A stretch of 41,991 nucleotides of DNA from Pantanalinema sp. GTDB lineage: Bacteria > Cyanobacteriota > Sericytochromatia > S15B-MN24 > UBA4093. The stretch's first letter is position 1, and each line of letters starts with the position of its first letter. The position numbers and the translations under genes were made by a program. This document shows positions 3,683 through 41,991 of the stretch, piece after piece. The notes beneath the pieces are model-generated. The model saw only the letters and a list, made by a program, of their open reading frames with translations. It was not told the DNA's origin and searched no databases. The stretch covers positions 1 to 41,991 of the forward strand of contig DATNQI010000082.1 in the NCBI GenBank assembly GCA_036704125.1. Direction: 5' to 3'.

Positions 3683-4828
3683 ATGATGGCTGAGAAGGTC
3701 GTTCCCTCGAAACCCTACTTCCCCGGTCTTGAAGGGGTCGTGGTGGCGATTTCGCAGATTACCTCGATCAACGGGACCGAGGGCAAGCTCATGTACCGCG
3801 GGTACAACATCCACGAGCTGGCCGAGCACTCGACCTACGAAGAGGTCGTGTACCTGTTGTTCAACGGTGAGCTGCCGACCGATGCCCAGCTGTCGGCGCT
3901 CAAGCAGCAGCTCGTGGCCGAGCGCGCGCTTCCCGCGCAGGTGCTCGACGTCCTGCGCCTGATGCCCAAGGACGCCAACCCCATGGCCGCCCTGCGCACC
4001 GCCGTCTCGGCGCTCGCCTTCTTCGACGCCGAGGCCGAGGAGATGTCGGTCGAGGCCAACCAGCGCAAGGCCTTCCGCCTGACCGCCCAGGTCGCCACCA
4101 TCGTGGCCGCCTTCGATCGCATCCGCAAGGGCAAGGAAGTCCTCGCCCCCCGTGCGGACCTCAGCCACGCCGCCAACTTCCTCTACATGCTCAACGGCGA
4201 GGTTCCCAACGAGGTCAATGCCCGCGCCATGGACGTGGCCCTCATCCTCCACGCCGACCACGAGATGAACGCCTCGTCGTTCGCCGCGCGCGTCACCGCC
4301 TCGACCCTCTCGGACTTCTACTCGGCGATCACCTCGGCGGTGGGCACCCTCAAGGGCCCCCTGCACGGCGGCGCCAACAGCGAAGTCATGAAGATGCTGC
4401 TCGCCATCGGCGACGAGGACAAGGCCGAGGAGTACGTCAAGACGGGGCTTGCCAACAAGCAGCGCTTCATGGGCTTCGGCCACCGCGTCTACAAGACCAT
4501 GGACCCCCGCGCCACGGTGCTGCGCAAGGTCTCGAAGCAGCTGGGCGAGCGCGCCGGCGACCTGAAGTGGTTCAACATGTCCGAGACCGTCGAGCGTCTG
4601 GTCAAGGCCGAGAAGGGCCTCGATCCGAACGTCGACTTCTTCTCGGCGTCGGCCTACTACATGATGGGCATCGACATGGACCTCTACACCCCGATCTTCG
4701 CGGTCAGCCGCATCGCGGGCTGGTCGGCCAACGTGCTCGAGCAGTACGCCAACAATCGCCTTATGCGCCCCGACACCGACTACACCGGTGCCAGCGAGCG
4801 CAAGTACGTCTCGATGGACAAGCGCTAG
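3683..4828 (+). CDS. gltA: Citrate synthase
   Basis: Condenses oxaloacetate with acetyl-CoA to citrate at the entry of the TCA cycle. At 381 aa it is the short form found in Gram-positives and archaea rather than the about 430-aa proteobacterial enzyme. The catalytic triad is visible: H228 in LHGGANSEV, H267 in GFGHRVYKT and D318 in PNVDFFSA; H193 in HADHEMNAS is also conserved. Two consecutive ATG codons follow AGGAAAGGA; the first is used here. It is monocistronic, with its own promoter and a G-rich hairpin terminator. mdh, whose product makes its oxaloacetate, lies 1.3 kb away on the other strand. A 2-methylcitrate synthase activity cannot be excluded from sequence alone. Confidence 0.94.
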   Translation: MMAEKVVPSKPYFPGLEGVVVAISQITSINGTEGKLMYRGYNIHELAEHSTYEEVVYLLFNGELPTDAQLSALKQQLVAERALPAQVLDVLRLMPKDANPMAALRTAVSALAFFDAEAEEMSVEANQRKAFRLTAQVATIVAAFDRIRKGKEVLAPRADLSHAANFLYMLNGEVPNEVNARAMDVALILHADHEMNASSFAARVTASTLSDFYSAITSAVGTLKGPLHGGANSEVMKMLLAIGDEDKAEEYVKTGLANKQRFMGFGHRVYKTMDPRATVLRKVSKQLGERAGDLKWFNMSETVERLVKAEKGLDPNVDFFSASAYYMMGIDMDLYTPIFAVSRIAGWSANVLEQYANNRLMRPDTDYTGASERKYVSMDKR

Positions 4829-40231: not shown

Positions 40232-40335
40232 GATAAAGCTTCAATTAAGCTTTGGCGAGGGATCGTCAGCATCCCCCTCCCCGGCGCGACAACTCCCACT
40301 GGAGCCCGATCCTTCTTTGCGCGAGGCTGTTGCCC

Positions 40336-41049
40336 ATGGCCATCCGATCGAATCCGACCGTCCTTCGCTCGCCCGTTCGCCCGGCCTCCTTCGCCGCGCC
40401 GGTCGCCGCTCAGGGGGACGTGACGCCGGCCCTTCCCGCCAAGAGCGACGCCCCTGCGCTGCCCGACCCCGGCAAGGCCAAGGCGCTCGCCGATCTGGTG
40501 ATGCACCCGATCAAGACGGTGAAGGCGGCCTTCGACTGGGGCAAGAACATCCTCTCTTTCGATCGCCTGGGAGCCATCACCCCCGCGAACGCGCCGCAGG
40601 CCCAGGCGACGCTCGGAGCGGCGGATCAGGCCCTGGGGAGCCTCGCCAAGCTCTTCCCCTTCATGTTTCGCGCCGTTGATCGGCGGGCGGCCCAGGCGGT
40701 GACGCAGCTGCGGCCCGGCATCGAGCAGGGGCTTTCGGAGCGCAGCCTGCACGGCATCAACATCGTCTGGCCGGTGGGCGGCTCCAACCTCTCGGCCCTG
40801 AAGGAGCTGACCGCCTTCGAGCGCGTTTTCGCGAACGCGCCCGATGCGACGGTCCAGAAGGCCCTCAGCGGCATCTCCGAGATCAACGTGCAGCGGCTGA
40901 GCCTCTGGGACGTGGCGAACCCGATCAAGCGCCAGGCCGCGACCCTCGTCATCCAGCGCCCCCTCACCTGGCTCCCCGGACAGAAGTCGGTCGAAGAGAG
41001 CATGAGGGCCTATCTCGATGCCCAGGGTACCGTCAAGGCCGCGATCTAG
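40336..41049 (+). CDS. Unknown protein with N-terminal disordered segment
   Basis: 237 aa, no family recognised. Residues 1-50 are Pro/Ala-rich (SPVRPASFAAPVAAQ). A helical globular part follows (LADLVMHPIKTVKAAFDWGK, LSALKELTAFERVFANAPDA). No signal peptide or clear membrane helix. ATG 40336 follows GAGG; the frame is open to 40252 without a better start. Its stop shares CTAG with the stop of the convergent gene at 41046. Confidence 0.7.
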   Translation: MAIRSNPTVLRSPVRPASFAAPVAAQGDVTPALPAKSDAPALPDPGKAKALADLVMHPIKTVKAAFDWGKNILSFDRLGAITPANAPQAQATLGAADQALGSLAKLFPFMFRAVDRRAAQAVTQLRPGIEQGLSERSLHGINIVWPVGGSNLSALKELTAFERVFANAPDATVQKALSGISEINVQRLSLWDVANPIKRQAATLVIQRPLTWLPGQKSVEESMRAYLDAQGTVKAAI

Positions 41050-41297
41050 ACGAGCCGCAGCGTGCGGACCCCCGCCCAGACCCCGGCGTTCTTGAGGCGC
41101 TCGGTCTCCTCGCCGAGGAAGTCGTCGTCGGTGGCTCGGCGCTCGAAGCGCTGGAAGCGGTTCTCCATCTCGCCCGACTCCAGCTTCATCATGGGGCGGT
41201 AGCGGTAGCCCAGCGACACCAGCTTGTGCTTGAGTAGCTGCGAGGCCACGGTCTCGGCGCCGCGGAAGCGAGTTTCGAGCAGAAAGCGCGTTCCCAT
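41046..41297 (-). CDS. Small basic protein of unknown function
   Basis: 83 aa, rich in Arg, Glu and Leu (MGTRFLLETRFRGAETVASQ, then LKHKLVSLGYRYRPMMKLES); no signal peptide, Cys cluster or known motif. A very good ribosome site (AGGAGAGG) precedes ATG 41297, which supports it being a real gene. It follows the tRNA-Ala(CGC) terminator and overlaps the stop codon of the convergent gene. Confidence 0.65.
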   Translation of the reverse strand: MGTRFLLETRFRGAETVASQLLKHKLVSLGYRYRPMMKLESGEMENRFQRFERRATDDDFLGEETERLKNAGVWAGVRTLRLV

Positions 41298-41350: not shown

Positions 41351-41381
41351 AAAAAAAGAGAGACGGGTCCGTGGACCCGCC
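41351..41381 (-). terminator. Terminator of tRNA-Ala(CGC)
   Basis: Minus strand 8-bp stem GGCGGGTC / GACCCGTC with a 4-nt loop followed by TCTC and eight T, 10 bp past the tRNA end. Confidence 0.9.
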
Positions 41382-41390
41382 TCCGTCGAG

Positions 41391-41463
41391 TGGAGGTAAG
41401 CGGATTCGAACCGCTGACCTCTGCAGTGCGATTGCAGCGCTCTACCAACTGAGCTATACCCCC
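41391..41463 (-). tRNA. tRNA-Ala (anticodon CGC)
   Basis: 73 nt folds fully: acceptor GGGGGTA/TACCTCC, D stem GCTC/GAGC, anticodon stem CTGCA/TGCAG with loop ATCGCAC (anticodon CGC, codon GCG), T arm AGCGG-TTCGAAT-CCGCT, discriminator A. CCA is not encoded. Position 32 is A, which is unusual. It has its own promoter and terminator and is not part of the rRNA unit. Confidence 0.95.
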
Positions 41464-41475
41464 GCGACATTGCTG

Positions 41476-41504
41476 AGTGTCGCAGAGGACGCCAGCCTTG
41501 TCAA
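41476..41504 (-). promoter_or_regulatory. Promoter of tRNA-Ala(CGC)
   Basis: Minus strand perfect TTGACA (41504-41499), 17-bp spacer, GACACT (41481-41476), about 12 bp before the tRNA. Confidence 0.65.
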
Positions 41505-41569
41505 GCTTGGCCTCTCGTCGCGAGGCGTTTCAACCCTTCCAAGCGACGCGGAAGATGATGGAGCTGCGA

Positions 41570-41603
41570 AAAGGCGGGTCGCGCTCGAGCGCGACCCGCC
41601 TTT
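41570..41603 (-). terminator. Strong terminator of the 16S-tRNA-Ile-tRNA-Ala unit
   Basis: 34-bp perfect palindrome: 15-bp stem AAAGGCGGGTCGCGC / GCGCGACCCGCCTTT around TCGA, with a T-run on the minus strand. It lies 17 bp past tRNA-Ala(TGC), where 23S rRNA would begin in a linked operon. Confidence 0.93.
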
Positions 41604-41620
41604 GGAAACCTGGAATTCAG

Positions 41621-41693
41621 TGGAGGATAGCGGATTCGAACCGCTGACATCCTGCTTGCAAAGCAGGCGCTCTACCAGCTGAGCTAATCCCCC
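41621..41693 (-). tRNA. tRNA-Ala (anticodon TGC)
   Basis: 73 nt: acceptor GGGGGAT/ATCCTCC, D stem GCTC/GAGC, anticodon stem CCTGC/GCAGG with loop TTTGCAA (anticodon TGC), T arm AGCGG-TTCGAAT-CCGCT, discriminator A, no encoded CCA. Its usual place is the 16S-23S spacer, and it follows tRNA-Ile here. Confidence 0.97.
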
Positions 41694-41709
41694 GCAGAAC
41701 ACGAGAAAG

Positions 41710-41783
41710 TGGGCAATACTGGATTCGAACCAGTGACCTCACCCTTATCAGGGGTGCGCTCTAGCCAACTGAGCTAATCGCCC
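41710..41783 (-). tRNA. tRNA-Ile (anticodon GAT)
   Basis: 74 nt: acceptor GGGCGAT/ATTGCCC, D stem GCTC/GAGC, anticodon stem CACCC/GGGTG with loop CTGATAA (anticodon GAT), T arm ACTGG-TTCGAAT-CCAGT, discriminator A. It is the standard first tRNA after 16S rRNA. Confidence 0.97.
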
Positions 41784-41980
41784 GAGAAATCGATCGGTTG
41801 TACTCAAGGTCTCCAAGCCAATTCCCCACATCGCTGCGGGGATCGAGCCGAGGGCCTTGACGACTAGATAGCGAATGAGCCGCTGGGTCATTACCCAGCC
41901 TGAGAGTAGAAAGTGCGGGTCTTGTATCAACCTGGTTCGACATATGGGGTTTCGCGCTGAGGCAAACCCCGTGTCTCCCT
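41784..41980 (-). other. Spacer between 16S rRNA and tRNA-Ile
   Basis: 197 bp without ORF. A GGGGTTT/AAACCCC stem (41946-41970) stands 10 bp after the 16S 3' end and a CCCCGCAG-type short hairpin lies near 41825-41840; both may be processing structures. Confidence 0.6.
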
Positions 41981-41991
41981 AGAAAGGAGGT
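41981..41991 (-). rRNA. rrs: 16S rRNA, extreme 3' end
   Basis: The minus strand reads ACCTCCTTTCT, the universal 16S 3' tail with the anti-Shine-Dalgarno CCTCC. The rest of the gene lies beyond the window. tRNA-Ile and tRNA-Ala directly downstream confirm it. Confidence 0.9.

Follow-up and report, generated by a model that had tools for sequence, protein, structure and literature searches.

The genome analyzed here very probably carries an unlinked (split) rRNA operon, in which 16S, tRNA-Ile, and tRNA-Ala form one unit and 23S and 5S form another. The window, by which we mean the whole stretch of DNA analyzed, is a single complete contig (C82) of 41,991 bases from a 3.5-Mb draft genome (G000) that comprises 102 contigs and is 96% complete. 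Because C82 ends on its right inside 16S, the unlinking is not visible from the window alone, and the first-pass annotation, which had proposed it, is borne out by the remaining contigs of the genome. Sericytochromatia is a non-photosynthetic class of Cyanobacteriota, related to the cyanobacteria, and split rRNA operons are uncommon but known; Brewer et al. (2020) reportedly dealt with bacteria whose 16S and 23S-5S genes are unlinked. Such genes are well known in bacteria (PMC7761764; PMC8172020), and their unlinking has been associated with symbiosis, genome reduction, and A+T richness (PMC7761764). They are classed as unlinked when 16S and 23S lie more than 1500 bp apart (PMC7761764) or more than 2000 bp apart without possible co-transcription (PMC8172020). 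On C82, no 23S occurs in the 41.4 kb downstream, and two hairpins resembling terminators intervene, together with a reading frame that runs the other way.

The 16S end and spacer tRNAs of C82

The last 9 to 10 nt of 16S, ACCTCCTTTC, which constitute its anti-Shine-Dalgarno end, lie on the minus strand at positions 41982-41991 and are cut off by the contig end. The junction between 16S and the spacer is that of a relative (G007:C332), where the match to the 16S model ends. The 11-nt tail motif has two further matches in the assembly, in C25 and C47, and no 16S was found in either. The 5' half of the 16S-23S internal spacer follows on the minus strand (about 200 nt; 41784-41981) and includes the 3' arm of a 16S processing stem (41855-41881). 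Next come tRNA-Ile(GAT) (41709-41783), the only copy found in the assembly, and tRNA-Ala(TGC) (41620-41693), in the normal operon order that the first-pass annotation had described.

Beyond tRNA-Ala, the minus strand contains a hairpin of 15 perfect base pairs with a short T run (41570-41603). Its folding energy is -32.5 kcal/mol (z = -5.6), and none of 200 shuffled sequences was equally stable. This hairpin had initially been called a 15-bp perfect terminator. The perfect stem stands; the terminator scan omits it because just four T follow the G+C-rich stem. It is probably the terminator of the 16S-Ile-Ala unit. The minus strand continues with tRNA-Ala(CGC) (41390-41463), which does possess its own terminator, a canonical intrinsic one found by both the terminator scan and folding (41359-41384). 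The proposal that this tRNA is separately promoted fares less well. By eye, we recognized a weak minus-strand candidate, TTGACA-17 nt-GACACT (41476-41504), whose TTGACA lies at 41504-41499 and whose -10 element (GACACT) is poor, and no site passes in a promoter scan ahead of the tRNA.

Protein-coding sequence, not 23S or 5S, lies past tRNA-Ala(CGC), as the first reading had it. The first open reading frame, of 83 amino acids on the minus strand (41046-41297), stands where a linked operon would have 23S; its product has no Pfam match and no relative in a scan of genome contigs. It is followed by a long open reading frame in the opposite orientation (40252-41049). No rRNA family scored above threshold anywhere in the window, and both 23S and 5S are absent from the roughly 41 kb past tRNA-Ala(CGC). 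C82 thus has no 23S behind its spacer tRNAs, in contrast to the relative G011.

16S and 23S flanks on other contigs

An Rfam search of the whole assembly did not find the 16S and 23S bodies above threshold, and no contig spans either gene; it recovered one copy of 5S (C52:24-139). The ends of 16S and 23S were located by BLAST, using the rRNA of relatives as queries. This search found one 5' end of 16S, which closes C8 (69292-69407 of 69408), and one 5' end of 23S, which opens C89 in reverse orientation (1-57). As to copy number, we found a single flank of each kind, in an assembly that lacks the rRNA bodies. Tetranucleotide correlations among C8, C82, C89, and C52 range from 0.96 to 0.99.

The 16S leader on C8, GACCTTGACAACTAGATAGCGAATAAGCC, is complementary to the C82 spacer, with a perfect core of 14 nt in an ungapped helix search, a length reached by 2 of 200 random pieces. 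We used this search in place of duplex energies, which did not discriminate when calculated for long leader and spacer pieces. When extended by eye, the pairing reaches 25 of 28 positions, and a 26-nt stem has the same role in the linked relative G011. The pairing indicates that C8 and C82 lie on either side of one and the same 16S and supports the layout C8-[16S]-C82. Two promoter-like sites precede 16S on C8 (TTGACT-18-TAGGAT and TTGACG-18-TAGAGT).

The single 23S start has quite different surroundings. The first-pass annotation had recognized that a 23S still preceded by 16S-Ile-Ala would speak against a split, yet the sole 23S 5' end, C89:1-57, lies behind promoter-like sites, a hairpin, and a protein gene. 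The element TTTGACAACTGCATAG precedes the 23S start, and upstream are TTGACA-18-TAGAGT and TTGACT-18-TAATAT, both well placed and resembling the pair ahead of 16S on C8; this stretch of C89 holds three promoter-like sites, against 0.1 expected. Further upstream are the hairpin and then the protein gene, which is short, beyond which another gene appears by eye to run in the opposite direction. Neither 16S nor a tRNA occurs upstream of 23S in the 20 kb of C89 that we read. C52 begins 23 nt before 5S and lacks the 23S 3' processing arm, which was not assembled, so the layout C89-[23S]-C52 is joined by elimination only.

Alternative readings

A mixed genome would also carry a linked operon, lost when rRNA repeats collapsed in assembly, and the window would then represent a stray 16S-Ile-Ala copy. 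Mixed arrangements exist in other bacteria (270 of 15,521 genomes; PMC7761764), and the 16S and 23S bodies are indeed missing from this 96%-complete draft, as is common in draft genomes. However, a linked copy would imply another spacer and another set of flanks, none of which survived assembly, whereas we find a single flank of each kind and a single tRNA-Ile(GAT). Nor did we find a native linked operon in other members of the order, the only linked one in their assemblies (G007:C149) being most likely a contaminant. We consider a mixed genome improbable, although, with neither gene body assembled, it is the chief reservation about the split.

An assembly or binning error, in which the tRNAs were falsely attached to the 16S tail or C89 and C52 come from another organism, is less probable still. 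The contigs do end inside rRNA genes, but the order 16S-Ile-Ala-Ala(CGC), again with no 23S behind it, was independently assembled in G007, and the 23S arrangement recurs in G006. Moreover, C8 and C82 are tied together by the leader-spacer pairing, and all four contigs agree in composition. The stretch at 41560-41640, where a break had initially been considered, is the interior of a continuous contig; the assembly breaks inside 16S itself. It is also conceivable that 23S lies farther downstream in the same direction and is co-transcribed by read-through, since the short T run at the first hairpin may allow only partial termination. This we regard as extremely unlikely given 41.4 kb of continuous sequence with no 23S, a second and canonical terminator behind tRNA-Ala(CGC), a next long open reading frame that points the other way, and a 23S start with different neighbors on C89.

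Linked and split arrangements in the class

To place the split operon among its relatives, we compared genomes of the class, 18 of which are in the collection examined. PsaA/PsaB is missing from all 18 and occurs in 20 genomes from elsewhere in the phylum, which makes the phylum Cyanobacteriota and, by elimination, the class probably Sericytochromatia. Two members of another order of the class are linked. G011:C80 has a complete operon with 23S about 165 nt past tRNA-Ala, and the contig G013:C15 covers 16S, Ile-Ala, and the spacer as far as the 23S leader, at which point it stops. Between tRNA-Ala and 23S, both spacers contain a promoter-like element recognized by eye, TTTACG-17-TAAGAT in G011 and, at the same place, TTGACG-17-TAATCT in G013, which resembles the TTGACG-17-TAAGAT sites of a second 23S leader in G006. 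Within the same order as our genome, G007:C332 carries 16S-Ile-Ala(TGC)-Ala(CGC) with no 23S in its remaining 4.6 kb, and G006 has 23S-5S without 16S or a tRNA in 2.4 kb upstream. A contig of G008 begins at the end of a tRNA-Ala and continues into Ala(CGC), as judged by DNA match. On G003:C45, tRNA-Ile(GAT) and tRNA-Ala(TGC) stand alone (3921-4074) behind a protein gene and with their own terminator-like hairpin, and no 16S occurs in the 4.7 kb upstream of the pair. The gene order flanking 23S-5S is not conserved between families, so synteny is of no help here. The 16S-end pattern, scanned across genome contigs, matches 60 stretches, which are from other groups.

Gene positions, the 16S stem, the composition match, and the promoter-like sites are read directly from the sequence, from which we infer that 16S and 23S would be made as separate transcripts. 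The 16S-tRNA-Ile-tRNA-Ala unit would start at the tandem promoters on C8 and probably end at the hairpin at 41570-41603, while the 23S-5S unit would start at its own tandem promoters on C89 and continue into C52, provided that the predicted promoters and hairpin act. The similar promoters may hold the two units in balance. The split itself appears to derive from the linked order, and the break would fall in the stretch that joins tRNA-Ala to the 23S leader in linked relatives: tRNA-Ala and everything before it in the spacer would have stayed with the 16S unit, and the final portion, with the TTGACAACTGCATAG element adjoining 23S, would have gone with the 23S unit. Because each precursor could still fold into a processing stem of its own, 16S and 23S would be able to mature independently.

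The first-pass suggestion that the tRNAs behind 16S preserve a step of the split fits these relatives, although it is itself interpretive. Taken further, the class may tentatively be viewed as a graded series of break-up, from linked (G011 and G013) through 16S-Ile-Ala apart from 23S-5S (G000 and G007) to Ile-Ala apart from both (G003). In this speculative scheme, the promoter-like element already present in the linked spacer may have made the split possible, as 23S could stay expressed once separated.

Compared with other unlinked bacteria, this genome similarly has 16S and 23S separated far beyond 1500 to 2000 bp, with protein genes and terminators between them, and a separate promoter region ahead of 23S, represented here by promoter-like sites. 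It differs from those of PMC7761764 in its size (3.5 Mb) and its G+C content (about 67% in the stretches read). Borrelia also has 16S apart from 23S-5S and tRNA-Ala beside 16S (PMC4370689), which weakens any claim of rarity; however, in Borrelia tRNA-Ile lies close to the 23S-5S repeats and on the opposite strand (PMC4370689), whereas here Ile and Ala both come after 16S with their usual order and orientation. The linked operons of the class (G011:C80 and G013:C15) share the order 16S-spacer-Ile-Ala, the processing stems, and TTGA(A/C)AACT elements before 16S and 23S. In G011, tRNA-Ala is followed by 23S, in contrast to the hairpin, tRNA-Ala(CGC), and protein genes found here. Linked relatives in the same class place the break within a stretch of about 165 nt and make the steps of break-up comparable. 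No earlier report combining Sericytochromatia with rRNA operons or unlinked genes was among the top 20 matches listed in our literature search. New, as far as that search goes, is the lineage, along with the mapped break, the occurrence in a larger genome rich in G+C, and the range of states found in a single class. Split rRNA operons are thereby extended to a neighbor of the cyanobacteria, and to a 3.5-Mb, G+C-rich genome as opposed to the small, A+T-rich genomes usually linked with unlinking. Such organisms would be overlooked in amplicon surveys that reach from 16S into 23S.

Several further observations concern the relatives. A complete linked 16S-Ile-Ala-23S-5S operon in G007 (C149, 3250-8595) was set aside as a probable contaminant: its 16S and that of G011 are about 74% identical, whereas the C332 fragment reaches about 90%. 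Composition by itself does not set this contig apart. In family f9, whose genomes measure about 2 Mb, tRNAs that match the spacer pair occur on their own, and the several kilobases around them contain no rRNA. The second 23S-type leader of G006, near-identical and with its own promoter-like sites, lies at a contig end (C11, 10240-10659); its promoter-like region is seemingly duplicated in tandem, with TTGACG-17-TAAGAT occurring twice, 134 nt apart. The 16S fragment of G007:C332 (1-337) has about 110 extra nt near its 3' end (about 127-237), parts of which, CCAGATGCGAG and ACGAAGCAGATGG, reappear in the spacer (about 505-540). On the same contig, the 31-nt 3' end of tRNA-Ala(CGC) (784-814) has a copy 3.9 kb downstream (4665-4695), and between these repeats lies a serine recombinase gene with Resolvase and Recombinase domains (1913-2833). 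This looks like an element integrated at tRNA-Ala(CGC), and a related recombinase is found behind the same tRNA in G008.
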